From: Methanoculleus thermophilus
Lineage (GTDB): Archaea; Halobacteriota; Methanomicrobia; Methanomicrobiales; Methanoculleaceae
Assembly: GCF_001571405.1 (NCBI RefSeq)
Contig: NZ_BCNX01000008.1
Span: forward strand, 1-64,000
Direction: 5' to 3'
Length of the DNA stretch: 64,000 bases
Position 1 is the stretch's first letter; each line of letters starts with the position of its first letter. Position numbers and translations under genes: made by a program. Below are positions 21,229-51,297 of this stretch, piece after piece. Below the pieces are notes generated by a model. It searched no databases. It was not told the DNA's origin and saw nothing but the letters and a program-made list of their open reading frames with translations.

Positions 21229-21275
21229 CAACGTTTCTCTATATACCTTTTATCTGACACGCATCTACACATCAG
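21229..21275 (-). promoter_or_regulatory. Shared promoter cassette, copy 1
   Basis: Sense strand: ATGTGTAGA, 6 nt, TCAGATAAA, AGG, TATATA, 4 nt, AACGTTGA. It has the same blocks and spacing as ten other copies in this window and drives the 114-aa/propeller/exported-protein operon. It is the farthest member, 12 kb from the next copy. Confidence 0.75.
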
Positions 21276-21442
21276 GTTCTTCTGATCGGTGCCAGACCAA
21301 AAAAAAGCCCCCGATGGGCCGGAAACCCGGGCCGCGCCGAACGGTAGAGGAAGGAGTCCGCACCGGCAAGCGATGAACCACTCCCAGCCGGGATGAGCAC
21401 GCTCCACCACTGCCGGCCGGGGAGGGCAGGGGGCCGGCGCCC

Positions 21443-21850
21443 TCAGGAGAGGCCGTGTTCACGGAAGAAGTCGGTGTAGCGCTTGTCCGAACCCTTGATA
21501 TGGTTCGCCACCCAGTCGCGGAGGAAACTCATGACCTGGATAGAGAGGCCGAGTTTACCCTCATCGAATCCCTTCTTGAACTCGCCGACCTTCGCGACGA
21601 AGGCCTGGTGCTCGCTTCGGTGCGCGTCAAACTCGGCGTAGCCGAACTTCTGCATATACTTCTCCTCGGTCGAGAAGTGATACTCCGTGTAGGCGGCGAG
21701 ATCTGTGAGCACTTTCCCAAGAACATCCTTCCCGCGCTTGTCGCGCATCGCGTCGTGAAGGTCGTTGATGAGCGATACGAGTTTCTGGTGCTGGTCATCG
21801 ATCTCTCGAACGCCCACGGAGAGATCGTCTGTCCATTTCATGAATGCCAT
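21443..21850 (-). CDS. Bacteriohemerythrin
   Basis: 135 residues from the ATG at 21850 (MAFMKW). Iron ligands of the hemerythrin four-helix bundle are visible: IDDQHQKL, YTEYHFSTEE, SEHQAFV and VANHIKGSDKRY. These proteins bind O2 reversibly through a di-iron site and may protect or deliver oxygen; in a strict anaerobe, oxygen scavenging is the usual suggestion. Single gene, divergent from the AEC permease. Confidence 0.95.
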   Translation of the reverse strand: MAFMKWTDDLSVGVREIDDQHQKLVSLINDLHDAMRDKRGKDVLGKVLTDLAAYTEYHFSTEEKYMQKFGYAEFDAHRSEHQAFVAKVGEFKKGFDEGKLGLSIQVMSFLRDWVANHIKGSDKRYTDFFREHGLS

Positions 21851-22128
21851 AAGCAGGAATAGGATCTCCTTCCGTATAAATTGTTCGCTATATTCCGAAC
21901 AGAAATGGAACAGATCCGCAAAAGATGGAACTGCACCCATGCCGATCTCGCCGTGACAGCGGAGATCGCGTGAATGCCATTAACGGATTTCCGCAGGATG
22001 ACATCCTTCCCTGCCGTCCTCGCCGCTCCTTGACCTGGTCCGGCAGTCCATGTTCCGCGGGGTTCAAGAGGCAGAACCGTAAAGGCAAAGCAGCACCCAC
22101 ACCTGATGAAGAGACCGGGTGCAGCGAG

Positions 22129-23061
22129 ATGAACGGTGCGATCACGGATTTCCTGATAGTTGCGGACCAGATCTTCATCCTGGTCCTCCTGATTGCCGCC
22201 GGCTACGTCGCCGTCGCGACAAAGATCGTCGACCCCCGGGCCACCCGGGGGCTCTCGGGGCTCCTCGTCAACATCACCATCCCGGCCCTGATCATCGCCT
22301 CGATGCAGGTGCCCTTCACCCCCGAACGCCTCGTCGACGCCGAGACCCTGGTTCTCGCGACCGGAGCGCTCTATATCTTCTCGTTCGGACTCGCCTGGGC
22401 GGTCTCGAAGGCCATGCGGGTCACGGCCGCGGAGGAGGGAGTCCTCCAGTTCGCGATAGTCTTCGGGAACGTCGGGTTCATGGGGTTCCCGGTCTCTCTC
22501 ACGCTCTTTGGGCAGGATTCGCTCTTTTACGTCGCGATATTCAATCTGGTCTTCAACATCCTCGTCTTCTCGGTCGGGATCGCGATGCTGACCGGGGGAA
22601 GGGGAAAGGGGTTCGACCCGAAACTGCTCTTAAACCCCGGGATCGCGGCCTCCCTCCTCGGGCTTGCCCTCTTCCTCGGTTCGATCGAGATCCCGAGCCC
22701 CTTCATCGACTCGATCGACCTCCTCGGAGGGGTGACGACGCCCCTAGCCATGATCATCGTCGGGGCGATGCTCGCGACCTTCCCGGCCCGGGAGATGGTC
22801 GGGAGCTGGCGGATCTGGACCGCGAGCGCCATCCTCCTCCTCGGGATCCCGGCGGCCTACTTCTACCTCCTCGCCCCGATCTTTGCCGACCCCTACATCA
22901 ACGGAATCATGATCACGATGGCCGCGATGCCCGCCGCCGCAAACACCGTCATCTTCGCCGAGCAGTACGGCGCCGACTCCCGGCTTGCATCGCAGATCGT
23001 CTTCGTCTCGACGATCGGCTCGCTCCTCACGATCCCACTGATCGCGACGGTGATGCTGTAA
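22129..23061 (+). CDS. AEC-family (auxin efflux carrier) permease
   Basis: 310 residues from the ATG at 22129; upstream in-frame sequence is not membrane-like. About ten spans in two halves with the family breaks LVNITIPALIIASMQ (first half) and AAMPAAANTVIFAEQYG (second half). AEC carriers export organic anions such as malate or malonate, or auxin-like acids; the substrate is not predictable here. It stands alone on the plus strand. Confidence 0.85.
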   Translation: MNGAITDFLIVADQIFILVLLIAAGYVAVATKIVDPRATRGLSGLLVNITIPALIIASMQVPFTPERLVDAETLVLATGALYIFSFGLAWAVSKAMRVTAAEEGVLQFAIVFGNVGFMGFPVSLTLFGQDSLFYVAIFNLVFNILVFSVGIAMLTGGRGKGFDPKLLLNPGIAASLLGLALFLGSIEIPSPFIDSIDLLGGVTTPLAMIIVGAMLATFPAREMVGSWRIWTASAILLLGIPAAYFYLLAPIFADPYINGIMITMAAMPAAANTVIFAEQYGADSRLASQIVFVSTIGSLLTIPLIATVML

Positions 23062-23065
23062 GAGC

Positions 23066-23223
23066 CTACTCCGCCCCGGTCCGACCTGCGACGTCGGCCG
23101 CGACCAGGACCAGCGCCACCCCGCGACGATGACGAGTACGAGGACCCACTGGTAGGCGAGAGCCGCATACAGGCCTGCCGCGATGCCGACGGCGAGCAGC
23201 GCGGCGAGGTATTTGCGTTCCAT
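23066..23223 (-). pseudogene. Small two-span membrane protein with a one-base frameshift
   Basis: From the ATG at 23223 the strand reads MERKYLAALLAVGIAAGLYA then AYQWVLVLVIVAG, and then goes out of frame antisense to the AEC gene. Adding one G in the GCGGGG run near 23117 restores VALVLVAADVAGRTGAE and a stop at 23066, five bases after the AEC stop. The repaired product is 52 residues with two spans. A G-run undercall or a real mutation would look the same. Confidence 0.5.
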
Positions 23224-23261
23224 GTTAACAACGAGGACGGCCTGGAGAGAGATGTCTTCTG

Positions 23262-23513
23262 TCACGCCTCTCTGCACTTCCGGGCGACGTTCCTGCATAC
23301 GCCATAGAGGCGCCGGACAACGAGGAGCACCAGGCCGATGATGCAGAATACAACGAGCACGAGGAATACGAGACCGATAGACTGGGCAAAGAGCATGAGG
23401 AGAGGTTCGATCGCCGGGTGGAGCACCCAGATAGGGTCGTAGAAGAGCAAGAGGAGGAGCATCGCAACGAAGAGTCCCGTTAAGAGTGTGTCCATCGATA
23501 TCTTTCGCTGCAT
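23262..23513 (-). CDS. Small membrane protein
   Basis: 83 residues with two long hydrophobic helices (LLTGLFVAMLLLLLFYDPIW; IGLVFLVLVVFCIIGLVLLV) and a basic tail (VRRLYGVCRNVARKCREA). A TATA box (TTATATAA) 20-25 nt upstream suggests a nearly leaderless transcript from the first ATG; an internal ATG at 23495 is an alternative. It lies directly upstream of the frameshifted small membrane gene and is probably co-transcribed. Confidence 0.6.
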   Translation of the reverse strand: MQRKISMDTLLTGLFVAMLLLLLFYDPIWVLHPAIEPLLMLFAQSIGLVFLVLVVFCIIGLVLLVVRRLYGVCRNVARKCREA

Positions 23514-31993: not shown

Positions 31994-32898
31994 GCCTCAT
32001 CCTCCAGCGCGTCTCTTTCGGCGGAAACGTACTCGACGTACGGCTCCGAAGCACCGTCCCGGACCGCGGTCCCAGAGAATGCATAAACCGGTCGGACCGT
32101 ATCCTGCACGACACCGCGGGGCTCCATCCAGTAGCCGAGCGAGATATTCTCGATTGTGACACGGTCATAGGCCGCACTTCCCGAAGGGCCGACGGTCCGT
32201 GATGCGAGGAGGTCGGCGTACGCCTCCTCCGGCGATCTAACGGCGACACTGCCCTCCGGTTCCACCTCCCGCCAGGTCTTCACGAGCCCGACGACATCGC
32301 CGCCGTCGCCCAGGATCACCGCAAACTCATCGCCGTAGACCGGCAGCCCGTCGAGCGACCGGCCGAACCGGACGGCAACGGTAACGTCGTACGACGCTTC
32401 AGGTTCATCGCCGCCTGAACTCCAGACCTCGTGCCTCTGGTTCACGGCGATCTCCACGACCCGGGCGTCCGGTGACGCCATCCCGGTCTTTGCGAGGAAG
32501 GCACGCGCGATCTCCTCCGCCTCCGCATCTGCCGGGAGATCCGGCTGCCGGGTCACCTCGGCCGGCAGCTCACGGTCGGGGATATGGTAAGCCACGGCGC
32601 CGGAGTGCGCATACACCGAGAGCCACTCCTCCGGGTCCTTTGAGGTGTCGACGAGGCGAAACTCCCTGGATTTCTCGCTCAACTCTCCCGAGAGCCCGAA
32701 CCGCCCGGCAATCCCCCGGACCTCCTCCCCCGTGACGGTGGCGGGGACGGCCCGGTAGAGCGTGCAGGAGTTCGGCGTCTCCGGGAACTCAGCGGCGAGA
32801 GAGAATTTATCCGCATCCGCGCTCAGCGGATTGAGAATCAGTATGCAGCCGACCGCAATCGCCAGGACGAATGCGCCGACCACGAGGTTACTCTTCAT
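31990..32898 (-). CDS. Exported two-domain protein, PepSY/YycH-like
   Basis: 302 residues with an N-terminal anchor (VVGAFVLAIAVGCILILNPL) and no C-terminal span. Repeats such as EEIARAFLAKTGM and SYDVTVAVRFGRSLDGLPVY have the helix-plus-sheet pattern of PepSY or YycH-type extracytoplasmic inhibitor modules. Overlaps both operon neighbours by 4 nt. Possibly a protease inhibitor or binding partner of the upstream gene product; this is a guess from fold type. Confidence 0.65.
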   Translation of the reverse strand: MKSNLVVGAFVLAIAVGCILILNPLSADADKFSLAAEFPETPNSCTLYRAVPATVTGEEVRGIAGRFGLSGELSEKSREFRLVDTSKDPEEWLSVYAHSGAVAYHIPDRELPAEVTRQPDLPADAEAEEIARAFLAKTGMASPDARVVEIAVNQRHEVWSSGGDEPEASYDVTVAVRFGRSLDGLPVYGDEFAVILGDGGDVVGLVKTWREVEPEGSVAVRSPEEAYADLLASRTVGPSGSAAYDRVTIENISLGYWMEPRGVVQDTVRPVYAFSGTAVRDGASEPYVEYVSAERDALEDEA

Positions 32899-33539
32899 AA
32901 CCCCGGTCCTGCAGTGGAGTAGTACCCGGGCGGCGGCGTAACCGGCCCTTGGTCCACCAGGACAGGGCCCTGCTGCTCGACATCCCGCGAACCGTATATG
33001 ATATGCAACGGGGACGCCGAGCCCTCGGCACGCGCCCGGGGCTCAATCCCGCTGATCCAGAACGTCTCCCCACCAAACGTCACGCTCCCGATAAGGCCCT
33101 TCTCCGAGGTCGTCAGGAGGACGTCGCTTCCCTCGACGCCGGGAATCGTCCCTTCGTAGGAGTCGATGCCGTCGTCGATCTGCTCGAAGGTCATCCTCTC
33201 CAGACCGGCCCGATACTCCGTGCCGCGGATCCGGAGCGGGAGTGCTCCCTCCCGCACCTGGCTGTTGACGGCAGCATGGTCGAACGTCACGATATCGTAC
33301 CGGGTGATGCCCTTCGGGATCTGCAGTTCCTCCGGCGCCGAAATCCCGGCGGCCGCAAGATCGGAGAGCGATGCGGCGTCTGCGACGATAACGGTCATCC
33401 CATCGCCGACGACCAGGACCGGGCCGCTCTCGTCCTCGGCCGGAGACCCGGATCCTTGGGCGCCTGCACCCAGCGCGATTGCCACTGCAACGATCAGGCA
33501 TGCCAGGAGAGCGATACCTCCGATATGGGTTTGATTCAT
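32895..33539 (-). CDS. Exported protein resembling a metalloprotease propeptide, without a catalytic domain
   Basis: 214 residues with a signal peptide (IGGIALLACLIVAVAIALGA). The central part (LPLRIRGTEYRAGLERMTF; YEGTIPGVEGSDVLLTTSEK; GSVTFGGETFWI) has the repeating strand pattern of the prodomains that precede M12-type zincins. It ends 50 residues later in a Gly/Pro/Val-rich tail with no HExxH. GAGGAGA precedes the ATG. First gene of the four-gene operon behind promoter cassette 2, 45 nt leader. Confidence 0.7.
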   Translation of the reverse strand: MNQTHIGGIALLACLIVAVAIALGAGAQGSGSPAEDESGPVLVVGDGMTVIVADAASLSDLAAAGISAPEELQIPKGITRYDIVTFDHAAVNSQVREGALPLRIRGTEYRAGLERMTFEQIDDGIDSYEGTIPGVEGSDVLLTTSEKGLIGSVTFGGETFWISGIEPRARAEGSASPLHIIYGSRDVEQQGPVLVDQGPVTPPPGYYSTAGPGL

Positions 33540-33598
33540 GATGTCTCCTCAAGGTGATGGGCGACCTCCAGTGATCGCGGCATCCACACGGGAGAGGT

Positions 33599-33645
33599 CA
33601 ACGTTCCCCTATAAACGATTTCTGTGGCAATCATCTACACATCGG
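33599..33645 (-). promoter_or_regulatory. Shared promoter cassette, copy 2
   Basis: Sense: ATGTGTAGA, 6 nt, CCACAGAAA, TCG, TTTATA, 4 nt, AACGTTGA. Transcribes the operon 33539 to 30706; expected start near 33590. Confidence 0.8.
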
Positions 33646-35930: not shown

Positions 35931-35933
35931 TTG

Positions 35934-36040: not shown

Positions 36041-36105
36041 CAACCGTGGATGGGGGGACCCCACGCATCACAGGATACTAATTCCAGTATCCACGATGGA
36101 GACGT

Positions 36106-36153
36106 CAACGCTCCTGTATAAACAATTTCTGTGACGCGTATCTACACGTCGGG
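36106..36153 (-). promoter_or_regulatory. Shared promoter cassette, copy 3
   Basis: Sense: ACGTGTAGA, 6 nt, TCACAGAAA, TTG, TTTATA, 4 nt, AGCGTTGA. Transcribes leader D and the operon 35930-34067. Confidence 0.8.
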
Positions 36154-36731: not shown

Positions 36732-37133
36732 CTAATGGATCAGAACACGGGTAGCATAGTATACTCCGTCGTACTCGAGGATCGGCGCATTCGCCGTATA
36801 CACACCAAACGACTCGGTGAGCGCGAGGCATTCGGCCCCCGTCATCGGGACCGGCGTGGATGCCGGCACGTTGGGGTTGCTGCCGGCCTCCCGGATCGCG
36901 GTGGCAAGAACCGGGTGCTGCTGCAGGTCCCGGTCGGTCAGACGGATGACGGATGCGTTCTGCAGACCCTCTTCCCCGACCACCTCCACAACCAACATTT
37001 GCGGCGGACCGTCGACTCCCGTGATCAGGGTGACGAAGGTCGTAACTCCGAACATGACCGCCGCGACGAGGAGGACGACGCCGATGAACGCAACGATTCC
37101 TATGATGATCAGGCGCTTTTTGTCAGGTTCCAT
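36732..37133 (-). CDS. Single-span membrane protein, family with 'QHPxLxxAIR' domain
   Basis: 133 residues from the ATG at 37133 (GGGAGGAGATTGC upstream). An in-frame ATG at 37178 would add MCGICPACVNMGGDC but lies before the Shine-Dalgarno. One N-terminal span (IIIGIVAFIGVVLLVAAVMF) is followed by an extracytoplasmic domain with RLTDRDLQQHPVLATAIREA and PILEYDGVYYATR. First gene behind promoter copy 4; the next gene is its paralogue. Unknown function. Confidence 0.7.
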   Translation of the reverse strand: MEPDKKRLIIIGIVAFIGVVLLVAAVMFGVTTFVTLITGVDGPPQMLVVEVVGEEGLQNASVIRLTDRDLQQHPVLATAIREAGSNPNVPASTPVPMTGAECLALTESFGVYTANAPILEYDGVYYATRVLIH

Positions 37134-37213
37134 GCAATCTCCTCCCATATTGACGCAGGCCGGACAGATCCCGCACATCGGGGCACCGATTCCGGCAGCT
37201 ATCGGTGAGAGCT

Positions 37214-37260
37214 CGACGTCCCTCTATAAACGATTTCTGTCACGATCATCTACACGTCGG
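37214..37260 (-). promoter_or_regulatory. Shared promoter cassette, copy 4
   Basis: Sense: ACGTGTAGA, 6 nt, TGACAGAAA, TCG, TTTATA, 4 nt, GACGTCGA. Drives the paralogous pair 37133-36270. Confidence 0.8.
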
Positions 37261-37340: not shown

Positions 37341-39722
37341 TCAGAGGTTGTGCGCGGGGACGCACCGGTTCTTCCCCGCATACGGCACGACCGGGCCGTG
37401 GAGTTCAATCCCGAGCGCCTCCCGGAGGACGTCCTCGATCGTCTCCACGGTCACGAACGTAAGATCGCTGCGGACATCCTCGGGGACGTCCTCGAGATCC
37501 CGCTCGTTCTCCCGCGGGAGGATGACCGTCTTGATCCCGGCCCGGTGGGCCGCAAGGACCTTCTCCTTGATCCCGCCGACGGGGAGCACCGCGCCGGAGA
37601 GGGTCACCTCGCCGGTCATCGCGAGCGTCGGGTCGACGGCTCTCCCGGTCACGAGGGAGGCGAGGGCCGTCAGGATGGTCACCCCCGCCGACGGCCCGTC
37701 CTTCGGGGTCGCCCCCGCCGGGACGTGGATGTGGATGTCGCTTGCGAAGAAGTCGAACCCTGTCGTGATGGTCGCGAGCCGTGAGCGGATCAGGCTGAGC
37801 GCAATCTGGGCCGACTCCTTCATCACGTCGCCGAGCTGCCCCGTCAGCGTCAGTTTCCCTTTGCCGGGCATGAACGTCCCCTCGATGAAGAGGATGTCCC
37901 CGCCGACCGGCGTCCAGGCCAGGCCCGTGACGACGCCGGGCGGGTTCTCCTTCCTCGCCATGTCCGGCCGGACGGTCTCCCGGCCGAGGATCTCGGGGAG
38001 CATATCGGCCGTCACGACGACCGGGAGATCGACGCCTCCCGAGACGACCTTCGCCGAGACGTACCGGGCAATCCGGGCAAGCTCCTTTTTGAGCGTCCGG
38101 ACACCCGCTTCCCGGGTGTAGCGGTCGATGATCGCCGCGATGGCCCCGTCCTCGATCCGGAGATGATCCGCGGTCAGGCCGTGCTCCTCGAGGGTCTCCG
38201 GGATGAGATGCTCCTTTGCAATCGCAAACTTCTCTTTCTTCGTGTAGCCCGAGATCTCGATGACCTCCATCCGGTCGAGGAGCGGCGCCGGGATCGTCGA
38301 GAGACTGTTTGCGGTCGCGATGAAGAAGACGTTCGAGAGATCGTAGGGGACCTCCAGGTAGTGGTCCGAGAACGTGCTGTTCTGCTCGGGATCGAGGACC
38401 TCGAGCAGAGCGCTTGCCGGATCGCCGGAGTAGGAGACGGCGAGCTTGTCGACCTCGTCGAGGACGAAGACCGGGTTCAGCGTCCCGGCACGCTTCATCC
38501 CCTGGATGATCCGGCCGGGGAGCGACCCGACGTAGGTCCGCCGGTGCCCGCGGATCTCCGCCTCGTCCTTGACGCCGCCGAGGCTGATCCGGACGTACTT
38601 CCGGCCCAGCGCGTCCGCGATGCTCCGCCCGAGGCTCGTCTTCCCCGTCCCGGGCGGGCCCACGAGGAGGAGGATCGAGCCCTGCTTCTCCTCCTTGAGC
38701 TTCATGACCGCGAGGTGCTGGATGATCCGCTCCTTAACCTTCTCAAGGCCGTAGTGGTTGCTCTCGAGCACCCGGCGGGCCTCCTCGATATCGATGCTCT
38801 TCTTCTCGACCGTCCAGGGGAGATCGAGCAGGAGGTCGAGGTAGTTCCGGATCCCCTGGCTCTCGTGGTGCTGGCTCCCGCCCGACTCGAGTTTCCTCAG
38901 TTCGGCAAGAGCCTTCTTGCGGACCTCCTCGGGCATCGTCGAGCGCTCGATCCGCTCCCGGTAGCCTTCCTCGCCGGACGAGCCGTCGCCCCCGTTGAGT
39001 TCCTCCTGGATCACCCGGAGCTGCTCGCGGAGCATCGCTTCGCGGTTCGCTTTTCCGATCTTCTCGGAGGCCTTTCTCGCCACCTCGATCCGGAGGTTGA
39101 TGCTCTCGCTGAGGTCCACCAGGAGCCGGAGGAAGGCCGTATAGCGCTCCCTGACGGAGACGGTCTCGAGGAGAGACTGCTTCGCGGCAACCTCCACCGG
39201 CATGAAGGGCACGACGAACGCCATGATCTGGTCGACGGACCCCATCCTGTCGACGGGCCGGGTGAACTGCTCGGAGCCCTGGAAGTTGGCGCTGATGTCG
39301 TGGACGGCTGCTTTGATCTCTGCGAGCATCTTTTCTCGGGTCTCCTCGTCGATATCCATGATGTCCGGGAGGGGTTCGAAGGCGGCGTAGAACTGCCCGT
39401 CCCTCTCCGAGACGGCCACGGCCTTCACCCGGCGGACCGCCCGGGCAAAGACCAGGTAGCCGTCGTCCGCAGGCTGGGCGTGCGTGACCATGAGGAGGTT
39501 GCCGGTCGTGTACAGCCCCTCGGCCGGGATCTCTGCAGGCGGGGTGCCGCCCTTGACGGTCAGGCCGACGGCGGAGGCCGATCCGTCGCTCTTCATGGCG
39601 GCGATCAGCAGCTCGCCCAGGGCCGTATCGACCTGGAACTTCGTCCGCGTCTCCGGGTAGACCACGGTCTCGAAGAGCGGTATGACAATCGTCTCGTTGC
39701 TGTCAGCGTGTGGTGAGTGCAT
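37341..39722 (-). CDS. lon: ATP-dependent protease Lon, bacterial-type LonA
   Basis: 793 residues from the ATG at 39722, which has GGAG 5 nt upstream. The N-terminal substrate-binding domain is about 1-205, with Walker A VGPPGTGKTSLGRSI (about 355), Walker B VFVLDEVDKL and the catalytic Ser/Lys dyad in PKDGPSAGV and GGIKEKVLAAHRAGIK. No membrane span is present, so this is the soluble bacterial LonA and not the membrane-bound archaeal LonB. That suggests old transfer from bacteria, as known in other methanogens. An operator-like site shared with the upstream marR gene precedes it. Confidence 0.97.
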   Translation of the reverse strand: MHSPHADSNETIVIPLFETVVYPETRTKFQVDTALGELLIAAMKSDGSASAVGLTVKGGTPPAEIPAEGLYTTGNLLMVTHAQPADDGYLVFARAVRRVKAVAVSERDGQFYAAFEPLPDIMDIDEETREKMLAEIKAAVHDISANFQGSEQFTRPVDRMGSVDQIMAFVVPFMPVEVAAKQSLLETVSVRERYTAFLRLLVDLSESINLRIEVARKASEKIGKANREAMLREQLRVIQEELNGGDGSSGEEGYRERIERSTMPEEVRKKALAELRKLESGGSQHHESQGIRNYLDLLLDLPWTVEKKSIDIEEARRVLESNHYGLEKVKERIIQHLAVMKLKEEKQGSILLLVGPPGTGKTSLGRSIADALGRKYVRISLGGVKDEAEIRGHRRTYVGSLPGRIIQGMKRAGTLNPVFVLDEVDKLAVSYSGDPASALLEVLDPEQNSTFSDHYLEVPYDLSNVFFIATANSLSTIPAPLLDRMEVIEISGYTKKEKFAIAKEHLIPETLEEHGLTADHLRIEDGAIAAIIDRYTREAGVRTLKKELARIARYVSAKVVSGGVDLPVVVTADMLPEILGRETVRPDMARKENPPGVVTGLAWTPVGGDILFIEGTFMPGKGKLTLTGQLGDVMKESAQIALSLIRSRLATITTGFDFFASDIHIHVPAGATPKDGPSAGVTILTALASLVTGRAVDPTLAMTGEVTLSGAVLPVGGIKEKVLAAHRAGIKTVILPRENERDLEDVPEDVRSDLTFVTVETIEDVLREALGIELHGPVVPYAGKNRCVPAHNL

Positions 39723-39736
39723 GGTGACTCCAATCA

Positions 39737-39761
39737 TTTAGTTTGAATTTACCTAACAATT
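39737..39761. promoter_or_regulatory. Operator-like site at lon, matching the marR upstream site
   Basis: TTAGTTTG, 2 nt, TT, 1 nt, ACCTAAC occurs here and at 40209-40229 in the same arrangement (plus strand). It lies between a TATA-like GTAATTTTTTG and the lon start, so a bound repressor would block initiation. Confidence 0.6.
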
Positions 39762-39776: not shown

Positions 39777-40196
39777 TTACCTGACCTTCCGGAGGATCTC
39801 GATCAAGAGATCCACCTCGTTCTCATCGAGTGCCTGCACAATCCTCTCGATCATACGATGGAGCGCATTCTGCTCGGCGTTTGCTATCATCCGCCCCTTC
39901 TCGGTCAGGCGGATGTAGGCCATCCTCCCGTCATCGGGGCACTTCTGCCGATAGGCGCACTCCATCCGGACGAACCTATCGACCATCTCCGTGACGGTGG
40001 GTTTCGAGTTGTTGGTGATCTCGGCGAGTTTGCTGAACGTCAGGTCGTGATGCTTCTCGATGACTTTCAGGTAGGCGATCTGTTTTGCCGTCAGATTGTT
40101 GAGCCCGCATTCGGCGGCGATCTCGCGGGTGCATTCGTTCTTGATAGCGATCAGGCGATCAAAGACCTCGAAGAGATGCTCAACTCTCGCCGTCAT
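39777..40196 (-). CDS. MarR-family transcriptional regulator
   Basis: 139 residues with the winged-helix core at about 30-100 (LTFSKLAEITNNSKPTVTEM; wing: CPDDGRMAYIRLTEKG). MarR proteins are usually dimeric repressors released by small ligands. The palindrome GGTTAG/CTAACC just upstream of its own start and a matching site upstream of lon point to autoregulation and control of lon. Confidence 0.9.
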   Translation of the reverse strand: MTARVEHLFEVFDRLIAIKNECTREIAAECGLNNLTAKQIAYLKVIEKHHDLTFSKLAEITNNSKPTVTEMVDRFVRMECAYRQKCPDDGRMAYIRLTEKGRMIANAEQNALHRMIERIVQALDENEVDLLIEILRKVR

Positions 40197-40274: not shown

Positions 40275-40967
40275 TCAGTTGATGAGGGTGTTCCCCTCCA
40301 GGGGGCGGAAGGGTTCGCGAGAACTGTCTCGGTGATAGATCCTTGGTTCTACGGGGATGATCCCGGTCTTTCCCGGCGGGATCCGCTCCATGATCGAGAT
40401 GTGGTAGTCGGGCCTCCCCTCGCCGGATATGGTGAAGTTGATGCTGACCAGGATGGGCTCAGGATCGTCCGATACGGGGCGGAGCGAATCCGGGACGATG
40501 ATGTATGGAGAGGCATTCCCCGCTTTCGAGAGGCGTGAGAGTCCCGGCACAAACCCGCTCGCCGCTATCTCCTCACGCGAGACCTCTCTTAAGAAACCCC
40601 CTGAGTGAGCGGCGGAGACATCCGTGAGATCCGCACCGGGGAGACGCAGTCCAAGCATCTCCCCATTCTCTGTCCTAACCGGGAGAGTCGTACAGTTGTC
40701 AGAGGTCATCCACCGGAGGTCCTCTCCGGAAAAGACCGGTGAACCGCCGACTGCAGGGAGGGGAACGACAAACTCCGTGATCGGATCTCCCCGGTAGCCG
40801 GACAGCCCGGTAACGGAGACGGCGTATGAGTAATCCCAGGAATGCTCCGACATCATCCGGGTCTGATGATAGTGGACGAGAATGTTTCCGCCGATGGCGA
40901 CAATCGCGATGGCGAGAAGCGAGACAACAACGACTTTGGCGAGAAAGGAAATTATCGAGGGAGCCAT
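40275..40967 (-). CDS. Membrane-anchored protein, paralogous family member 1
   Basis: 230 residues with an N-terminal span (VVVVSLLAIAIVAIGGNILV) and an extracytoplasmic beta domain. The landmarks YAVSVTGLSGYRGDPITEF, PVFSGEDLRWM, ADLTDVSAAHSG and SIMERIPPGKTGIIPVEPR recur in the 41043 and 42100 products. Follows its paralogue by 75 nt, behind promoter copy 5. Unknown function, probably cell envelope. Confidence 0.7.
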   Translation of the reverse strand: MAPSIISFLAKVVVVSLLAIAIVAIGGNILVHYHQTRMMSEHSWDYSYAVSVTGLSGYRGDPITEFVVPLPAVGGSPVFSGEDLRWMTSDNCTTLPVRTENGEMLGLRLPGADLTDVSAAHSGGFLREVSREEIAASGFVPGLSRLSKAGNASPYIIVPDSLRPVSDDPEPILVSINFTISGEGRPDYHISIMERIPPGKTGIIPVEPRIYHRDSSREPFRPLEGNTLIN

Positions 40968-41042: not shown

Positions 41043-41717
41043 TCAAAGGTGGATACCCCCGGGAATGACGTGGTATTCGGCCGGGACCGGGACGAAGCCG
41101 GACTCTGTGCTCGAAACGGCCGTATTCACCGTCGCCGTCCAGGTATCCTCCTCTATCAGGTATTTCATGCCCCCGCCGCCCCGGTACTCGAGGTCAAACG
41201 AGATCGATGTGGCGTTCTCCGGCGGCGAGACGAAGCCGTCGAGGAAGACGACGGTGGTGTAGGTCCCGCCCGAGCTCCGGGCGAACTCGGCGACGCTCAC
41301 GTTGTCCGGGGTCGCGAGGGCCGGTACGAGTAGCCGGGGTTCTTCTTTCGTCTCGAACTCGCCGGTCGGTCTGGAGATATCCTGCGCGTAGTCCTCCGTC
41401 GTCGTGAACGCGATCATCTTCCCGTACGGCGTCTCCCGGATCGCCGTCCTCCACCCGGCGGGCTGGAGAACGCTGGACGACTCGAAGATCACCAGCTCGC
41501 CCTCCGCGTTCGCCGGAACCGGGATCATGACCGTGGCGGTGCCGTTCACGGCGAGATCGGACAGACCGGTGATCTTGATCATGTAGGAGTCGTTCGGCAT
41601 GGTCGTCTCGACGAACGCGGGAAGAAGAAGGAGCAGGAAGATCACCGCGGCGAGGATGGTGACCGCTATCAGCAGGTTCAGTAAGGTTTTTTTGGTATTG
41701 GTACGCTGTTCGCCCAT
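41043..41717 (-). CDS. Membrane-anchored protein, paralogous family member 2
   Basis: 224 residues from the ATG at 41717; a GTG six codons earlier is in frame. N-terminal span LLIAVTILAAVIFLLLLLPA, then the family pattern SYMIKITGLSDLAVNG, ELVIFES, GWRTAIRETPYGKMIAFTTT. First gene behind promoter copy 5; its leader can form a CCGGA-AGG/CCTCCGG stem, a weak version of leaders A-D. Confidence 0.7.
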   Translation of the reverse strand: MGEQRTNTKKTLLNLLIAVTILAAVIFLLLLLPAFVETTMPNDSYMIKITGLSDLAVNGTATVMIPVPANAEGELVIFESSSVLQPAGWRTAIRETPYGKMIAFTTTEDYAQDISRPTGEFETKEEPRLLVPALATPDNVSVAEFARSSGGTYTTVVFLDGFVSPPENATSISFDLEYRGGGGMKYLIEEDTWTATVNTAVSSTESGFVPVPAEYHVIPGGIHL

Positions 41718-41773
41718 CTCCCCACCATCACCCACCGGAGGGGCCCCGCCTTCCGGGATCTATGCATGAGAAG

Positions 41774-41820
41774 TCAACGTCCCCCTATAAACGATTTCTG
41801 TCACGATCCTCTACACGTTG
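41774..41820 (-). promoter_or_regulatory. Shared promoter cassette, copy 5
   Basis: Sense: ACGTGTAGA, 6 nt, TGACAGAAA, TCG, TTTATA, 4 nt, GACGTTGA. Drives 41717-40275. Confidence 0.8.
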
Positions 41821-42099: not shown

Positions 42100-42807
42100 T
42101 TAGAACTCGCTTATCGGAACCCAATTTCCACCACCCTCGTACCTCGCAGCATGAACGTTTACCGGGATCGCTCCGCGAATGTCAGGAGGAACATGCTCCA
42201 GAATACTCACCCGGAACGTATCTCCCGATATAGAATGATGGATTCCCTCAGATACGGTTAACTCCAGGCTAACGGCAACATCTGTTGCATTCGCATTCAG
42301 AGGCACAAGATCCTTCGGGAGGAAGAGGACCGATGTGTATCCGGACCCATCCTGCGTGCTGGAATTCCATCCTGCAGAGGAGTTGAGACCGTCACGCATG
42401 AGCGGGGAGAGAGACTCATTCTGAGGGTCTGTCAGCCTTAGCTCACCGGGATCAAAATTTTTGAAAAATTCTGCGTGGACATCAGTAAGATTCGTACCGA
42501 CCGATTGAAAAGCAAGCATTTTGCCATAGGGGGTTACGACAATCACCGATTTCCAGTTGCCGAATTGCCTGTACTGGAGTTCTTCTTCCGAAAAAACCAG
42601 CTCCCCGTCCCTCATAGGCATCGGCACGATAATATCGGTGACCGGTTCGTCGATATAGTTGGAAAGGCCGCCTATTGTGACCGTATATCTGTAATAGCCC
42701 GGGTTTGAGTTAATCCAGGCAACTCCGAACAGGGTAAGGAAGAACATAAGAATGACGGTAACTGCAGCCGCCAAAAATAGAATTTTGAGTTTAGTTAAGG
42801 ATGCCAT
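42100..42807 (-). CDS. Membrane-anchored protein, paralogous family member 3
   Basis: 235 residues. N-terminal span ILFLAAAVTVILMFFLTLFG; the family landmarks YYRYTVTIGGLSNYIDEPV, ELVFSEEELQY, TPYGKMLAFQSVGTNLTDV and SILEHVPPDIRGAIPVN align with the 40275 and 41043 proteins. GGAG precedes the ATG. It lies behind leader B and a degenerate promoter, downstream of the protease operon. Confidence 0.7.
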   Translation of the reverse strand: MASLTKLKILFLAAAVTVILMFFLTLFGVAWINSNPGYYRYTVTIGGLSNYIDEPVTDIIVPMPMRDGELVFSEEELQYRQFGNWKSVIVVTPYGKMLAFQSVGTNLTDVHAEFFKNFDPGELRLTDPQNESLSPLMRDGLNSSAGWNSSTQDGSGYTSVLFLPKDLVPLNANATDVAVSLELTVSEGIHHSISGDTFRVSILEHVPPDIRGAIPVNVHAARYEGGGNWVPISEF

Positions 42808-42867
42808 CGTGTCTGTGCTCCATGGGTCGATTCAGGGACGGGTAACATAGTACTTCCTTCAGTCTCT

Positions 42868-42945
42868 TTCTTCGGAGGCAGGAGAGGCATTCCTTCAAAC
42901 ATGGGAAGAGCACACGTTCCCATTGCCTCCGGGCATGCGGGATGT
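42868..42945 (-). ncRNA. Structured leader B (candidate translational switch)
   Basis: Sense: TCCCGCATGCCCGGAGGC leads to a 45-nt loop and GCCTCCG; arms are 42931-42925 and 42879-42873. Inside the loop ATGGGAA/TTCCCAT can form a 7-bp hairpin. Block order and spacing match leader A although much of the loop differs. Unlike A, C and D it lacks a nearby GGAGG, so the switch half may be degenerate. Confidence 0.5.
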
Positions 42946-43123
42946 TCACCCGGACGTTTGGCAAACCGGCGGGGTGAACTTCCGCACCGGTGCAGACGAC
43001 GCCCGCGGTACCCACGATTGTCCACTTGGACATTTCAAGATAAACCGTTTATGGGACAAACACCATTTTGAAGCCTACCTCTATAGGAAAAAACAGGCTG
43101 CGGCCCTGGGGATTGTGACCTCC

Positions 43124-43684: not shown

Positions 43685-44815
43685 TCAACCTGTTAGCGGA
43701 AGAACGCCTAGTGCTGCCTGCACACCTGATACCGGTGAAAAGTACTCTTCACCGTTGAAATTTCCAGAGTGTATCCCTACAACAATTCTGTCATGATCAG
43801 GTTCAACATGGTAAACTGGTGCTCCACTATCCCCGTTTGCGGCACTATAAGAAACAAAGTACTGATCGTATAAATATTTCTTTGTATCGCCGTTAAATAC
43901 AATATCCTTCCTTATGGTTGCTCCTGATGTTGTGCCCGTAGTAATTCCTGATTTGTAAACGGGCAACCCTATTCCACAGTCAGTATAGTAACCTTTCACG
44001 GTTTGTTGTACCCCTCCACTACCATAGATTTTTGCCGCAACATTACTGTAGGGAACCCAAGCTGCATCTGCATATGAACTCTGACTTGGCCAATGGGTAT
44101 CAGCAGCCACTGTACCAACGGCATTTGACGCACTTACACTTGGCTGGTATATTGTTTCCCCGACACCGTCAGAACAGTGTCCAGCAATGACATAGCCAAG
44201 GGTTCCAGCAGCGTTTCGCGCAGCCCAACCAATTGTTGCGGTTCCTGTTGAACTGCCTAAGACTGCCTGCATCTGCACCCCCCCAATCACGGGACGGAAC
44301 CTGTCACTTGCGCTGTGAAGTACTAGACTGTCAGGATCGACAGATCTAACCTTGATGGGAATATCTCCGACTCCCGATTTTTTTGCTTCTTCACTCAGCA
44401 TTGTGTATATCTCGTTCACTGCAATATCAGTTTTATCCTCAGAATATCCCTCCACAACACCGATTCCGACATACCCCTCAATGTCATACCCAAAACCGAT
44501 GATGGGACCATCCGGGTAAAGGTAGGGTTTTACGGAGTCGAACATGTCGCTTGTGAGGTTATCTAGGAAATTATACCATGTACGTCGATGCTGTGTATCT
44601 TTGAATTCCGGTAGAGTGCCGCGTATATCAATGACGCTTTCTTTTGATTTGAGGTACTCAACGGCTGCGGTGTACTCGTCACTTGTAAGTTCTGCACGTT
44701 CAACAGTCATGCTACACTCATCCGCAACTGGGTTCGCAGAAGCAAATCCCAGACAAACCGATACCGTCAGCATGAGTATAACAAACGCTGACAGAAATTG
44801 CTGTTTTCTCTCCAT
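43685..44815 (-). CDS. Secreted chymotrypsin-fold (S1, streptogrisin-like) serine protease
   Basis: 376 residues: signal peptide (LSAFVILMLTVSVCLGFASA), an N-terminal prodomain (about 30-165) and a protease domain. The catalytic triad is visible as VIAGHCSDG (His), SYADAAWVPYS (Asp) and AANGDSGAPVY (Ser). S1 proteases of the alpha-lytic/streptogrisin kind are made with a folding prodomain, which fits. Unusual in methanogens; secreted or surface proteolysis is expected. Second gene behind promoter copy 6 and leader A. Confidence 0.85.
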   Translation of the reverse strand: MERKQQFLSAFVILMLTVSVCLGFASANPVADECSMTVERAELTSDEYTAAVEYLKSKESVIDIRGTLPEFKDTQHRRTWYNFLDNLTSDMFDSVKPYLYPDGPIIGFGYDIEGYVGIGVVEGYSEDKTDIAVNEIYTMLSEEAKKSGVGDIPIKVRSVDPDSLVLHSASDRFRPVIGGVQMQAVLGSSTGTATIGWAARNAAGTLGYVIAGHCSDGVGETIYQPSVSASNAVGTVAADTHWPSQSSYADAAWVPYSNVAAKIYGSGGVQQTVKGYYTDCGIGLPVYKSGITTGTTSGATIRKDIVFNGDTKKYLYDQYFVSYSAANGDSGAPVYHVEPDHDRIVVGIHSGNFNGEEYFSPVSGVQAALGVLPLTG

Positions 44816-44824: not shown

Positions 44825-44929
44825 TCAATCAGGATTGGCATCCATAGCCACCGCCGGCACCACACCCACACTCACAAACAACAGCGCCAGGAGCAGGGAG
44901 AATGCCCGCGTTCTGACTTTTCCATTCAT
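44825..44929 (-). CDS. Short exported peptide gene behind leader A
   Basis: 34 residues with a strong GGAGGAAAGAGC before the ATG. MNGKVRTRAFSLLLALLFVS then VGVVPAVAM is a complete signal peptide, leaving only a few residues (DANPD). It may be a leader or coupling peptide for the protease gene 9 nt downstream, or a secreted micropeptide. Confidence 0.55.
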   Translation of the reverse strand: MNGKVRTRAFSLLLALLFVSVGVVPAVAMDANPD

Positions 44930-45035
44930 GCTCTTTCCTCCGATAATTTTCCGGAGGCGAGCGAGGCATACTTTCAAGTACACAAGGCACGTACACTCTT
45001 TTGCCTCCGGGCATGCGGGACGTTCACCCATCCGA
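44930..45035 (-). ncRNA. Structured leader A (candidate translational switch)
   Basis: Sense: TCCCGCATGCCCGGAGGC, a 44-nt loop, then GCCTCCGG (arms 45010-45003 and 44958-44951; 8 bp). The same CCTCCG can pair with CGGAGG 9 nt downstream, which is the Shine-Dalgarno of the short gene. The two hairpins are mutually exclusive. Confidence 0.65.
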
Positions 45036-45102
45036 TTCGCTCTTGGCCGGGTGGACCCCCCGCGCTTCGGGATACCGGCTCCGGTACCCACGTGTGAGAA
45101 AT

Positions 45103-45150
45103 CAACGTTCTTCTATAAACGATTTCTGTCGATCCTCTCTACACGTTGAG
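45103..45150 (-). promoter_or_regulatory. Shared promoter cassette, copy 6
   Basis: Sense: ACGTGTAGA, 6 nt, CGACAGAAA, TCG, TTTATA, 4 nt, AACGTTGA. Drives leader A and the protease operon. Confidence 0.8.
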
Positions 45151-45382: not shown

Positions 45383-45420
45383 GAACGTGTAGAGAGGTTT
45401 GAGAGAAAACTTAAGTGAAG
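45383..45420 (+). promoter_or_regulatory. Shared promoter cassette, copy 7 (weaker)
   Basis: ACGTGTAGA, 6 nt, TGAGAGAAA, ACT, then TAAGTG in the TATA position; the downstream AACGTTGA block is missing. Drives 45445 and probably the membrane regulator gene. Confidence 0.65.
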
Positions 45421-45444
45421 GTATTTGAGAAGTTCCCCGGTGGT

Positions 45445-45882
45445 ATGATGACATACAACCGCATCTTTGCACTGGTGCTTGCACTGGTCCTGATGGCGCC
45501 GCCGGCTTTTGCCGGGAGCAGCGAATGTGGTGTGAACACCGCTTCGGAAGAGGAGAACCCGGCAGGCGACGCCGGAATTCGCGCCATTTACCTCATAGAG
45601 CAGGGAGAGACAAACCATCACAGCGCGTATGTGCCTCCAGGGAGCTCAACGCTGTTTGTGAATCTAAACTGGTTTATCCCCCAGCAGTCGTTGACGCTGA
45701 AGATCATCTCGCCGAGCGGAAGCACCTACGCCTACTATCACGATACCGATCTAGATGGTGATAAAAACGCACAGATCCGCACATCGATCTCCTCTCCGGA
45801 GGCTGGAACATGGCGATTCCAGGTTTACGGGGAAACCGTGCGGGATGCCCAGGATTATTCCTTTGAAGCCGCGGCGGAATAA
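45445..45882 (+). CDS. Secreted protein with PPC-like beta-sandwich
   Basis: 145 residues from the ATG at 45445: a signal peptide (IFALVLALVLMAPPAFA), then a domain with LTLKIISPSGSTYAYYHDTD and SPEAGTWRFQVYGETV. These are the strand pattern of pre-peptidase C-terminal (PPC)/P-type domains often joined to secreted proteases. A secreted protease is encoded across the intergenic gap. The regulator gene begins 40 nt downstream. Confidence 0.72.
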   Translation: MMTYNRIFALVLALVLMAPPAFAGSSECGVNTASEEENPAGDAGIRAIYLIEQGETNHHSAYVPPGSSTLFVNLNWFIPQQSLTLKIISPSGSTYAYYHDTDLDGDKNAQIRTSISSPEAGTWRFQVYGETVRDAQDYSFEAAAE

Positions 45883-47536: not shown

Positions 47537-47580
47537 CGACGTGTAGAGGAATGTGAGAGAAAAGGTATATGGAGTAACGA
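47537..47580 (+). promoter_or_regulatory. Shared promoter cassette, copy 8
   Basis: ACGTGTAGA, 6 nt, TGAGAGAAA, AGG, TATATG, 4 nt, AACGATCC. It precedes the ABC-2 permease by a leader of about 165 nt that holds no convincing ORF. Confidence 0.72.
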
Positions 47581-47770
47581 TCCAGTCTCAAGACGGCAAC
47601 ACCCGTGGAAGTGCATCTGAGTAACCCTTGCCTGTTCCGGGCGGCGGAAAAACCTCGGTTGTCACTTAAGGGGCGATACCGTGTATAATCGCGGGCCTGC
47701 GGTACTCTTGCGACCACGGACGGAGAACGAGCATGGAGATAGAAGCATATACACTGACCGGTGATAACAC

Positions 47771-48739
47771 ATGACGGCGGAACGGGTCTTCACCGTGGCC
47801 CAAAAAGAGTTCACTGACCAGATAACGGGCTGGCGGTTTCTGGTGATCCTCGCCCTCTTCCTCGCCATCGCCCTGGTGGGGACGTACAGCGGGGTCGTGA
47901 GCTACGAGAGAGAACTGGATAGATACTCGGAGCAATTGGCCGCGATGGATAACCAGAATGACGGACCGGCCGGGATGATGCCCGCAAAACCGCCAGTTGA
48001 GGGCGTTTACTCCTCAATGTTCCTCACGCTGATCTCCTACGGGGGGCTCCTTGCCATCGCCGTCGGGTCCGGCCTGGTCTCCGGGGAGAAGGAGTCCCGG
48101 TCGCTCAAAAGCCTGCTCTCCCACCCGGTCTACCGCGACGAGGTCATCAACGGCAAGGCGCTCGGGGGCGTCGCGCTGCTCGCCCTCGTCGTCGGGAGCG
48201 TGCTCGCTATCTCCACCGCGCTCCTCCTTGTCTTCTCGATCGTGCCCGCCGCCGGCGATCTCTGGATGATCCTGACCTATGCGGGCGTCATCCTCCTCTT
48301 CCTCGTCACGTTCTTCTCCATCGCGCTCGCCCTCTCCACCCTCTGCCGGGAGAGCGGCAGCGCCCTGCTCCTCTCGGTGGTCGTCTTCATCCTCCTCGTC
48401 TTCCTGTTCCCCTACGCCACCACGCATATCGGCATGGCGCTCATGATGGAGGAGCCCGACCCGACGGCATACGGCGGGGACATCTCGTCGGAAGAATTCC
48501 AGGCAGCGTTCACGGCATATTACGGGCAATTCGACCTGATCCAGAGCATCGGAAACCTCGCATCACCGCAGATGGCGACCAACGCCCTCATCCAGGGGAT
48601 CGCCAACGCCCCGACATCGGGGGCGACCCTTGAGGATACGCTCGGCGAGATATGGTCGAGCGTGGTGGCGCTGATCCTCTACCCCACCGTCTTCTTCGCC
48701 GTCGCGTACACGCGGTTCATGCGGATGGACATCCGGTGA
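47771..48739 (+). CDS. ABC-2 type (NosY-like) permease without a nearby ATPase
   Basis: 322 residues with six spans. VFTVAQKEFTDQITGWRFLV at the N-terminus and SGEKESRSLKSLLSHPVYRD (about 100-119), the coupling-helix region of NosY/ABC-2 permeases, are visible. The normal partner ATPase gene is absent on either side, so it works with a distant ATPase. Driven by promoter copy 8. Possible roles are export or membrane protein handling. Confidence 0.85.
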   Translation: MTAERVFTVAQKEFTDQITGWRFLVILALFLAIALVGTYSGVVSYERELDRYSEQLAAMDNQNDGPAGMMPAKPPVEGVYSSMFLTLISYGGLLAIAVGSGLVSGEKESRSLKSLLSHPVYRDEVINGKALGGVALLALVVGSVLAISTALLLVFSIVPAAGDLWMILTYAGVILLFLVTFFSIALALSTLCRESGSALLLSVVVFILLVFLFPYATTHIGMALMMEEPDPTAYGGDISSEEFQAAFTAYYGQFDLIQSIGNLASPQMATNALIQGIANAPTSGATLEDTLGEIWSSVVALILYPTVFFAVAYTRFMRMDIR

Positions 48740-48861: not shown

Positions 48862-48906
48862 GCGAACATGTAGAGAGAAGTGAGAGAAAAGGTAAATATT
48901 CCAACG
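48862..48906 (+). promoter_or_regulatory. Shared promoter cassette, copy 9
   Basis: ACATGTAGA, 6 nt, TGAGAGAAA, AGG, TAAATA, 4 nt, AACGTAGA. Drives leader C and 49087. Confidence 0.7.
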
Positions 48907-48980
48907 TAGAGGTAGCAGTGCGGATGCCGGCATCAGGCATTCGCATAAGTCGCGGGGCCACACATCCGCGGTTCACGACA

Positions 48981-49080
48981 GGATGATGCACCCCGCATGC
49001 CCGGAGGCGAAAAGAAGGTTATTATTACCTCTACTTATAGGTACGTCCTTTCCCCCTCCGGCACCGTAACAAGGAGGAAG
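48981..49080 (+). ncRNA. Structured leader C (candidate translational switch)
   Basis: CCCCGCATGCCCGGAGGC begins the element; CCGGAGG (49001-49007) pairs with CCTCCGG (49055-49061) across a 47-nt loop. CCTCC can alternatively pair with the GGAGG Shine-Dalgarno 13 nt downstream (AAGGAGGAAGC). Inside the loop ACCTCTA/TATAGGT can form a further hairpin. Confidence 0.65.
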
Positions 49081-49086
49081 CAGAAG

Positions 49087-49593
49087 ATGAAAACAAGAAA
49101 CGGATCTATCACGGCCTGGGCGGTACTGGCACTGGTTGTACTGGCTTCCGTCGGTGCGGTTTCCGCAGCCCAGGCTCAAAGTCAGGAGAGCATTGAAGTC
49201 GGAACCGAGGATACCGGCGACATCGGAATTCTGGCCGTAGAAGAACTGGGAGTCATGTATACAGACGGCGACGCCGATACGGCAAGCGTGACGACGTACG
49301 GACCCATAACCGTTCCGCCCGGGTACAACACCTTCAAAGCGAAGTACTACAACTCCAATGACGAAGACAACGACGGGCAGGGAGCACTCTACCGTCTGAC
49401 GGTCTACGATGCTCAGGGTATGGCGCACACTAAACAAATAAAGGTGGACTGGGCGACCAGCGGGACAATCGAAGTGAGTTTTGATTCGCGGGGCACTGGT
49501 GATGCCTACTACGAACTCTGGTGCGAGACGCACGATTGGCTCGACACAACGAAAGCAACGGACATAGGCACCGGGGACCTCGACTATGTCTGA
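49087..49593 (+). CDS. Secreted protein, first of a paralogous pair
   Basis: 168 residues from the ATG at 49087 (AAGGAGGAAGCAGAAG upstream); a longer in-frame start lies inside the leader stem and is rejected. Signal peptide AWAVLALVVLASVGAVSA; then a beta domain with TTYGPITVPPGYNTFKAKYY and YRLTVYDAQGMAHTKQIKV. The latter matches FTLTVWNPAGVPHSTTREF in the next product. Unknown function. Confidence 0.75.
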   Translation: MKTRNGSITAWAVLALVVLASVGAVSAAQAQSQESIEVGTEDTGDIGILAVEELGVMYTDGDADTASVTTYGPITVPPGYNTFKAKYYNSNDEDNDGQGALYRLTVYDAQGMAHTKQIKVDWATSGTIEVSFDSRGTGDAYYELWCETHDWLDTTKATDIGTGDLDYV

Positions 49594-49597
49594 AGGG

Positions 49598-49629: not shown

Positions 49630-49643
49630 AAACGGTGATCCGA

Positions 49644-50135: not shown

Positions 50136-50283
50136 TACCCGCGACTTCCAGGCCACCCATTGATAAACAGCGAACTTTGCCCGTCGGGACGAATCGGATG
50201 GCCGTGGGACTATGTGTCCCGGCCCCCACATAGTGTCAGAGCGATAACGGGCACTGGCTGCTCCTCTTCAACCGACTGAGACC

Positions 50284-50330
50284 CGACGTGTAGACAATCA
50301 TGACAGAGAACATTTATAGGGTGACGTTGA
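50284..50330 (+). promoter_or_regulatory. Shared promoter cassette, copy 10
   Basis: ACGTGTAGA, 6 nt, TGACAGAGA, ACA, TTTATA, 4 nt, GACGTTGA. Drives 50409 and 50970. Confidence 0.8.
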
Positions 50331-50408
50331 CCACTCATCGATTAATACCGGAACCCAGGCCCGGCAAACGGCGGGGCGGGTGAGTACCGTCGTCCGGGAG
50401 AAGAGAAC

Positions 50409-50954
50409 ATGTCGACAGAGACGCCCTCAGAAACCACCTTCACCGGCCCCCGCCGGGTCTTTCAGCGCCTCAATGAAAAGTCGTTACGCGACGATCTCGT
50501 ATTCTATTTCGCGATCGTCGCAGTCGCATCGGTTCTCTTCATGGCGTTACCCCTCCTTACGGGAAAGGAGCCGGAGATTGACGGGTTGCACCGGCTCTGG
50601 TTCATCGCGGCAGGCACCCTTATCACCTTCGTGCAGGGCCTGATAGCCGGGGCCGTCACCCTCCTCGCCGTCAGCCTCGTCGAGCACTTCTTCCTGCTCT
50701 TCGTCGACGTCCACCGCGAGTTCGAGCAGACGATGAAGTCGGCGGTCTACGCTCTCGCGCCGCTCATCCTCTTCTCCTGGGCGGTCCTCCTGCAAGTCCC
50801 CTTCGCCGGCCTGCTCCTCCTCGCCTGGTTCTGCCTCTCGACCTACTTCGGCGTATGGATATTCCACGAGAAGTCGAAGGACCGGGCCGTCTTCGTCGCT
50901 CTTGCAACCAGTTTGGTCCTCGCGTACTATCTCCATCGCGCGGTGGGAATCTGA
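50409..50954 (+). CDS. Four-span membrane protein
   Basis: 181 residues. A hydrophilic N-terminus (about 1-28) and spans at about 32-52, 64-90, 108-142 (possibly two) and 158-175 resemble Yip1-type membrane proteins, though the match is weak. EHFFLLFVDVHREFEQTMKS lies between spans 2 and 3. The next gene starts 15 nt later. Confidence 0.65.
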   Translation: MSTETPSETTFTGPRRVFQRLNEKSLRDDLVFYFAIVAVASVLFMALPLLTGKEPEIDGLHRLWFIAAGTLITFVQGLIAGAVTLLAVSLVEHFFLLFVDVHREFEQTMKSAVYALAPLILFSWAVLLQVPFAGLLLLAWFCLSTYFGVWIFHEKSKDRAVFVALATSLVLAYYLHRAVGI

Positions 50955-50969
50955 TAACCGGTGACGGTC

Positions 50970-51170
50970 ATGAACTGCAACCACCTCTCGTTCCTGTGGA
51001 AACTGCTCCTCACCCTTGCCGTAGTCGTCCTCGCGGTCAACTTCTACCAGGACATCATCCTGCACGACCGGCCTGACGCCTTTACCCGGTGGCTGTTTCC
51101 CGTGTTGCTGTTTAGCAGCCTCATCGTGCAGATCGTGAGCAAACGGTGCCAGAAAAAGCAGCCAGACTGA
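50970..51170 (+). CDS. Small two-span membrane protein
   Basis: 66 residues from the ATG at 50970, which follows GGTGACGGTC. Spans at LLLTLAVVVLAVNFYQDI and LFPVLLFSSLIVQIV with a Lys/Arg-rich end. In one transcript with the preceding membrane protein behind promoter copy 10. Unknown function. Confidence 0.6.
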   Translation: MNCNHLSFLWKLLLTLAVVVLAVNFYQDIILHDRPDAFTRWLFPVLLFSSLIVQIVSKRCQKKQPD

Positions 51171-51249
51171 CCGTTCTGCCGTGGAGGAAGATCCGCATCG
51201 AGATATCCCTTCTACTGCTCCTCCGGGAACGAAACGGATTGACGCGCCC

Positions 51250-51297
51250 CGACGTGTAGACGATTGTGACAGAAATCGTTTATACAAGAACGTTGAC
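51250..51297 (+). promoter_or_regulatory. Shared promoter cassette, copy 11
   Basis: ACGTGTAGA, 6 nt, TGACAGAAA, TCG, TTTATA, 4 nt, AACGTTGA; the closest match to the consensus. Expected transcription start near 51307, giving a 46-nt leader to the gene at 51353. Confidence 0.85.

Follow-up and report, generated by a model that had tools for sequence, protein, structure and literature searches.

The first 64,000 nt of contig NZ_BCNX01000008.1 of Methanoculleus thermophilus (the window, by which we mean this whole stretch of DNA) raise the question of what eleven copies of one promoter element control, and by what means. An earlier interpretation made from the letters alone (the sequence-only reading) had taken these copies for a candidate envelope regulon under one activator or sigma-like factor. 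The system proved not to be confined to the window, and its larger part, a structured RNA leader that follows some of the promoters, was absent from that reading. We consider it probable that one transcription factor, together with an RNA switch that hides the Shine-Dalgarno (SD) sequence, controls a regulon of exported proteins in Methanoculleus and its relatives. That the promoter and the RNA family exist is well supported; how the switch works, and the signal it answers to, we infer.

The promoter module and its genes

All eleven copies were found where the sequence-only reading had placed them, with the claimed block order and spacing intact (on the minus strand, its numbers give the lower-coordinate edge of each motif). 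Read in the direction of transcription, the blocks are (A/G)AYGTGTAGA, 6 nt, a TGACAGAAA-like block, 3 nt, a TATA hexamer, 4 nt, and a AACGTTGA-like block, after which comes an additional conserved TCTC, located where transcription should begin and missing from the earlier description. The pattern ACGTGTAGA-N6-TGACAGAAA-N3-TWTATA, with up to three mismatches, matched nine times in the window compared with 0.00 expected from 100 shuffles. Copies 1 and 7 are weaker than this strict pattern, yet in register; copy 7 lacks the last block, just as reported, and its TATA is poor too. A matrix built from the eleven copies recovered exactly those eleven at scores of at least 25 and none in the reversed window; because the matrix was trained on the same copies, it is the shuffles, the reversed window, and other genomes that serve as informative controls.

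Across the whole genome (2.2 Mb), about 19 sites were found at E < 0.02, 11 of them in the window and the rest on contigs 3, 6, 10, and 16, and they lie upstream of genes rather than scattered inside them. Those examined beyond the window likewise stand before genes for exported or membrane proteins or before an ABC-transporter operon. Within it, the first open reading frame (ORF) after each copy encodes a signal-peptide or transmembrane protein, the exceptions being copy 3, where the reading frame is broken, and copy 6, where a signal-peptide ORF cut short at 34 codons precedes a secreted protease. The proposed family of small envelope genes has to be widened, because secreted enzymes are among the products. 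A shared, non-random element upstream of genes was found, and a dedicated promoter module for exported and membrane proteins is well supported as real.

Conservation in other genomes points the same way. R2, a sequence-only model of the eleven copies, had matches in 47 of the 232 genomes of the order, including almost all genomes of the genus Methanoculleus and members of several other families. Matching sites stand upstream of orthologues in eight relatives, as expected of a regulon, and the fixed-spacing blocks are kept while the surrounding DNA diverges; the site before the ABC permease gene (copy 8), for example, scored 63.7 alike in the window and in genomes G049, G053, G057, and G074. 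Of the three outcomes that the sequence-only reading had named as fatal to it, two, randomly placed matches and loss of the blocks before orthologues, did not occur. A simple degenerate promoter pattern scarcely exceeded shuffles when applied across families, so the cross-family claim rests on the co-location of profile matches described below. In genome G105 of family f5, R2 gave no promoter match; similar blocks are visible there by eye.

The promoters on the minus strand are copy 1 (21221–21273), upstream of a TTG-initiated ORF for a protein with a signal peptide and a C-terminal transmembrane segment (20887–21168); copy 2 (33591–33643), upstream of an exported-protein ORF (32895–33539) and the ORFs that follow it; copy 4 (37206–37258), upstream of a membrane-protein ORF (36732–37133); copy 5 (41767–41819), upstream of two membrane-protein ORFs (41043–41717 and 40275–40967) and then, on the same strand, of genes for a MarR-family protein (39777–40196) and Lon (37341–39737); and copies 3 (36098–36150) and 6 (45095–45147), each followed by a leader RNA. 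On the plus strand lie copy 7 (45384–45436), the degenerate one, before an exported-protein ORF (45445–45882); copy 8 (47538–47590), before the ABC-2 type permease ORF (47771–48739); copy 9 (48865–48917), with a leader RNA directly after it; copy 10 (50285–50337), before an ORF for a Yip1-family membrane protein (50409–50954); and copy 11 (51251–51303), before a membrane-protein ORF (51353–51898). Three membrane-anchored proteins encoded on the minus strand (40275–40967, 41043–41717, and 42100–42807) resemble one another and had no Pfam match. The cluster is adjoined by an ordinary-looking run of tryptophan biosynthesis genes (55416–63204, minus strand), named from the beginnings of their translations only.

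The leader RNA and the proteins behind it

In an alignment of promoter-downstream DNA, copies 3, 6, and 9, along with three found on other contigs, run into a common leader of about 170 nt that ends in an SD sequence and a start codon, which by sequence places it in the 5′ leader of coding genes. A covariance model of the leader (R1) located nine instances in this genome and many across the order. With a broader model (R3), leaders were detected in 86 of the 232 genomes of the order, covering 20 of 40 genera and six families, and a sample of the phylum showed them in families outside the order as well. The leaders outside the order are A+T-rich, which is among the bases that suggest Methanosarcinaceae as their hosts. 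No Rfam 15 family was matched at its gathering score by the window or by 12 leader loci, and leader 6, searched at a permissive threshold, returned chance-level matches only. A literature search, which did not cover subscription papers, found no earlier description of the promoter/leader system. The leader is an RNA family unregistered in Rfam, and the control system is apparently both old and undescribed.

Support for the fold comes from compensatory change. Among 41 leaders from several families of the order, the covariation score was 0.338, compared with 0.158 for shuffled and at most 0.086 for slid partners, and 28 of 38 pairs had changed on both sides. For 32 leaders from outside the order, the corresponding scores were 0.372, 0.137, and 0.107. 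A MAFFT/RNAalifold run independent of the model recovered two of the three stems, P2 and P3. The predicted secondary structure of the leader is thus strongly supported by covariation.

Promoter and leader also occur side by side. Four genomes from three other families (G158, G011, G093, and G085) were searched separately with R2 and R3, and 19 of 36 promoter matches lay at most 50 nt upstream of a leader match on the same strand or overlapped its start (9 of 15, 5 of 11, 3 of 6, and 2 of 4, respectively, counted by hand from two tables). To judge from this co-location, the two belong together. An A-rich tract resembling the TFB-recognition element (BRE) adjoins TATA. Where TATA is clear, most leaders of f1, f4, and f5 have stem P1 beginning 19–22 nt downstream of it; given this near-constant distance, P1 is where the transcript should begin. 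Outside the order, the DNA upstream of leaders often reads GATGATTTGGTCACAAATTAATTATAA, which looks like the same layout, without statistical support. Another conserved sequence (AATGTTAATCAGGCTGATGAA...TCATCGTAATAAATGTATAG) precedes leaders L174, L175, and L188, likewise from outside the order, and may represent an alternative promoter type serving this leader. A mobile or viral origin was also considered and rejected: viral contigs held no exact match to the main promoter pattern, and phage records no near match to one 10-kb stretch.

An ORF with a hydrophobic, signal-like N-terminus follows 90 of 97 leaders. Its signal peptide is stereotyped, reading RALSxLLAxLLVSVxxVPAVSA in the order and IGxLLAAMLLVxMAFVPAVSA outside it, and the 86 mature parts fall into 36 unrelated families. 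Types that could be identified are an M12 metalloprotease, a C39-like peptidase, a transglutaminase, DUF6345, and a zinc phospholipase C-like protein; the protein behind leader L070 scored 20.9 bits against the halocin C8 domain TIGR04449, for which the cut-off is 24. Behind the leader at L012 (G000 contig 10, 6279–7040), a protein with a Cys-rich C-terminus resembles halocin C8 by eye and had no NCBIfam or Pfam match.

Within the window, leader 9 (48918–49086, plus strand; stems P1, P2, and P3) is the only one whose immediately following gene is intact and keeps the signal peptide in frame. That gene (49087–49593, plus strand) encodes an exported protein of 168 amino acids whose mature family is shared with the protein behind leader L147, from another family of the order. 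Leader 6 (44927–45093, minus strand) precedes the 34-codon ORF (44825–44929), which holds little beyond the stereotyped signal peptide; directly after it comes the ORF for a secreted, streptogrisin-like serine protease with a signal peptide of its own (43685–44815, minus strand). Leader 3 (35928–36096, minus strand) contains an internal tandem duplication of about 23 nt (CCGGATGATAGAGCCCCACACG), and the ORF behind it (35697–35930) leaves the signal-peptide frame after RAF; relatives G074 and G072 have a very similar short ORF. A fourth copy, at 42846–43017 on the minus strand, has no promoter match and is followed by a degenerate 17-codon ORF, and we regard it as a relic.

A candidate switch and the rival explanations

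The feature that suggests regulation lies at the 3′ end of the leader. Just upstream of the SD sequence, the 3′ strand of P3 (UGCCUCC, the anti-SD) can base-pair with either the P3 5′ strand (GGAGGCA) or the SD itself (GGAGG), and it is present in nearly all leaders. In leader 9, the P3 5′ strand GCCCGGAGGC (48999–49008), which can pair with the anti-SD CCCCCTCCGG (49052–49061), and the SD AAGGAGGAAGC (49071–49081) all lie on the plus strand. The minus-strand counterparts in leader 6 are GCCCGGAGGC (45003–45012), CTCGCCTCCGG (44951–44961), and CGGAGGAAAGAGC (44930–44942), the last of which pairs with the anti-SD in the predicted minimum-free-energy (MFE) fold. With anchors fixed by the P3 alignment, the anti-SD formed a helix of 6.9 bp with the SD of its own leader compared with 6.2 bp with swapped SDs, and none of 5000 permutations attained the own-SD value. 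Outside the core, the pair is variable (CG 51, TA 6), two inner pairs are also above shuffles, and one lineage has changed both sides, GUCUCC facing GGAGAC. Covariation was accordingly seen for both alternative pairings, with the P3 partner and with the leader's own SD, which supports, and does not prove, mutually exclusive SD-hidden and SD-free states. Leaders generally share a conserved stretch, UACUU(G/A)A, between the two P3 strands; it may lie in a small hairpin loop and is the best candidate for a sensing site.

The regulon we propose would operate at two levels. A DNA-binding factor would recognize the GTGTAGA-N6-TGACAG block, whose conservation was observed directly, upstream of the A-rich BRE and TATA, and would recruit TBP and TFB. 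Transcription in archaea depends on TBP and TFB, so a sigma-like factor is no option in a host that is an archaeon; that half of the sequence-only proposal falls away with the bacterial type of regulon, and the upstream block instead points to an activator, as also proposed, or to a variant TFB. In a share of the members, the transcript would begin with the leader of about 170 nt, predicted from covariation to fold into P1, P2, and P3. Pairing of UGCCUCC with GGAGGCA would leave the SD free and pairing with the SD would hide it, and a signal acting on the leader would then set translation. The translated product would be the stereotyped signal peptide, as encoded in the genes, joined to one of many unrelated mature proteins, with proteases, phospholipase C-like enzymes, transglutaminases, and halocin-like peptides among them. 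The whole would form a gate on the methanogen's exported proteins at transcription and at translation. In a bolder version, which we put forward tentatively, the leader would represent a new natural riboswitch class in archaea, or some other RNA that senses a signal, and would gate the translation of exported enzymes and antimicrobial-like proteins in methanogens at large, on top of a dedicated transcription factor that reads the shared promoter.

Several observations weigh against this proposal. The mechanism cannot reside in the leader alone, which is missing behind eight of the eleven window promoters, and upstream DNA outside the order is often of another promoter type. Within one genome, recent duplication accounts for part of the similarity. 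The alignments behind the covariation scores (A7 and A8) were fitted to the structure model. Because control ORFs from the same clusters have a hydrophobic N-terminus in 61% of cases, the enrichment for export is less decisive than the shared sequence of the signal peptide. As for the switch, the SD is always near GGAGG, so that much of the anti-SD pairing is invariant; the anti-SD/SD covariation is modest, from a permutation test that ignores relatedness; and in the predicted MFE folds the SD is hidden for some leaders (e.g., leader 6) and free for others.

These points bear on how the rival explanations are to be judged. If the promoter regulon were real and the leader a constitutive structure that stabilizes the mRNA or enhances its translation (through 5′ end protection or SD spacing), no switch would be needed. 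This would agree with the start of the leader at the expected transcription start (for most leaders of Methanoculleus, f4, and f5, 19–22 nt past TATA) and with fold predictions, which do not give two clear states in every member; long 5′ untranslated regions (UTRs) are, moreover, frequent in Methanolobus and Methanosarcina, where they can influence stability (PMC5378194). We nevertheless think it unlikely, given that the anti-SD occurs in nearly all leaders and covaries with its P3 partner and with its own SD, neither of which a purely protective hairpin needs. Recent duplication could also be taken further, the copies being mainly debris in which promoter, leader, and signal peptide were copied as a 5′ cassette before new exported genes, with no common regulator or switch required. 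Copying or recombination clearly did occur, one signal peptide being joined to 36 mature families, and the copies are clustered in the genome and include the relics at 42846–43017 and 35928–36096. As a full account it is very improbable: the fixed-spacing blocks were kept while surrounding DNA diverged, sites stand upstream of orthologues in other species, and leader pairs were maintained by compensatory changes across families. Copying is how the cassette spread, not why it is conserved.

The factor postulated in our two-level proposal might be sought in the window itself. The gene for the MarR-family protein (39777–40196) belongs to the run of genes that follows copy 5, and 12 of 18 related loci have a site upstream of MarR. 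That it is the dedicated regulator binding the shared block is hardly credible, however, since the leader-bearing families f4 and f5 gave no orthologue at E ≤ 1e-12, even though f4 has promoter matches with R2, and since many f6 genomes encode the protein but lack the leader. This missing co-occurrence with leader-bearing families rules it out as a general regulator.

Relation to known control systems

To our knowledge, little has been established of how methanogens control secretion, and natural RNA switches have rarely been described in archaea. One RNA family, absent from Rfam, before proteases, phospholipases, transglutaminases, and bacteriocin-like peptides in at least two groups of methanogens would offer a direct handle on enzyme release, and if the hosts outside the order include Methanosarcina, the question is open to genetics at once.

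The promoter resembles archaeal BRE/TATA promoters with an upstream activator site in its A-rich BRE beside a TATA hexamer and in the block immediately upstream. It differs from ordinary archaeal promoters in that about 50 nt are conserved, including the region from TATA to the presumed start, and are common to some 20 promoters. The leader, for its part, is like translational riboswitches and other SD-sequestering leaders in combining covarying, conserved stems with a putative choice of pairing partners for an anti-SD that precedes the start codon. Unlike the translational riboswitches, it occurs in archaea, precedes genes for secreted proteins rather than metabolic genes, and has no match in Rfam 15; few natural riboswitches have been described in archaea, crcB being one (PMC2864571). 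The long 5′ UTRs of Methanosarcina and Methanolobus are likewise long methanogen leaders with proposed post-transcriptional roles, and one of them, before an Hsp20 gene, is predicted to bury the ribosome-binding site; in the available part of that account (PMC5378194), they are treated gene by gene, and a shared conserved family of the present kind was not found described there. Among the products, the L070 protein resembles the halocin C8 domain, at a score below the cut-off, and several others are secreted hydrolases, which invites comparison with halocin C8-like peptides and archaeal antagonism proteins (PMC12352652); that study deals with peptidoglycan hydrolases, and the products behind the leaders are at most putative antagonists.

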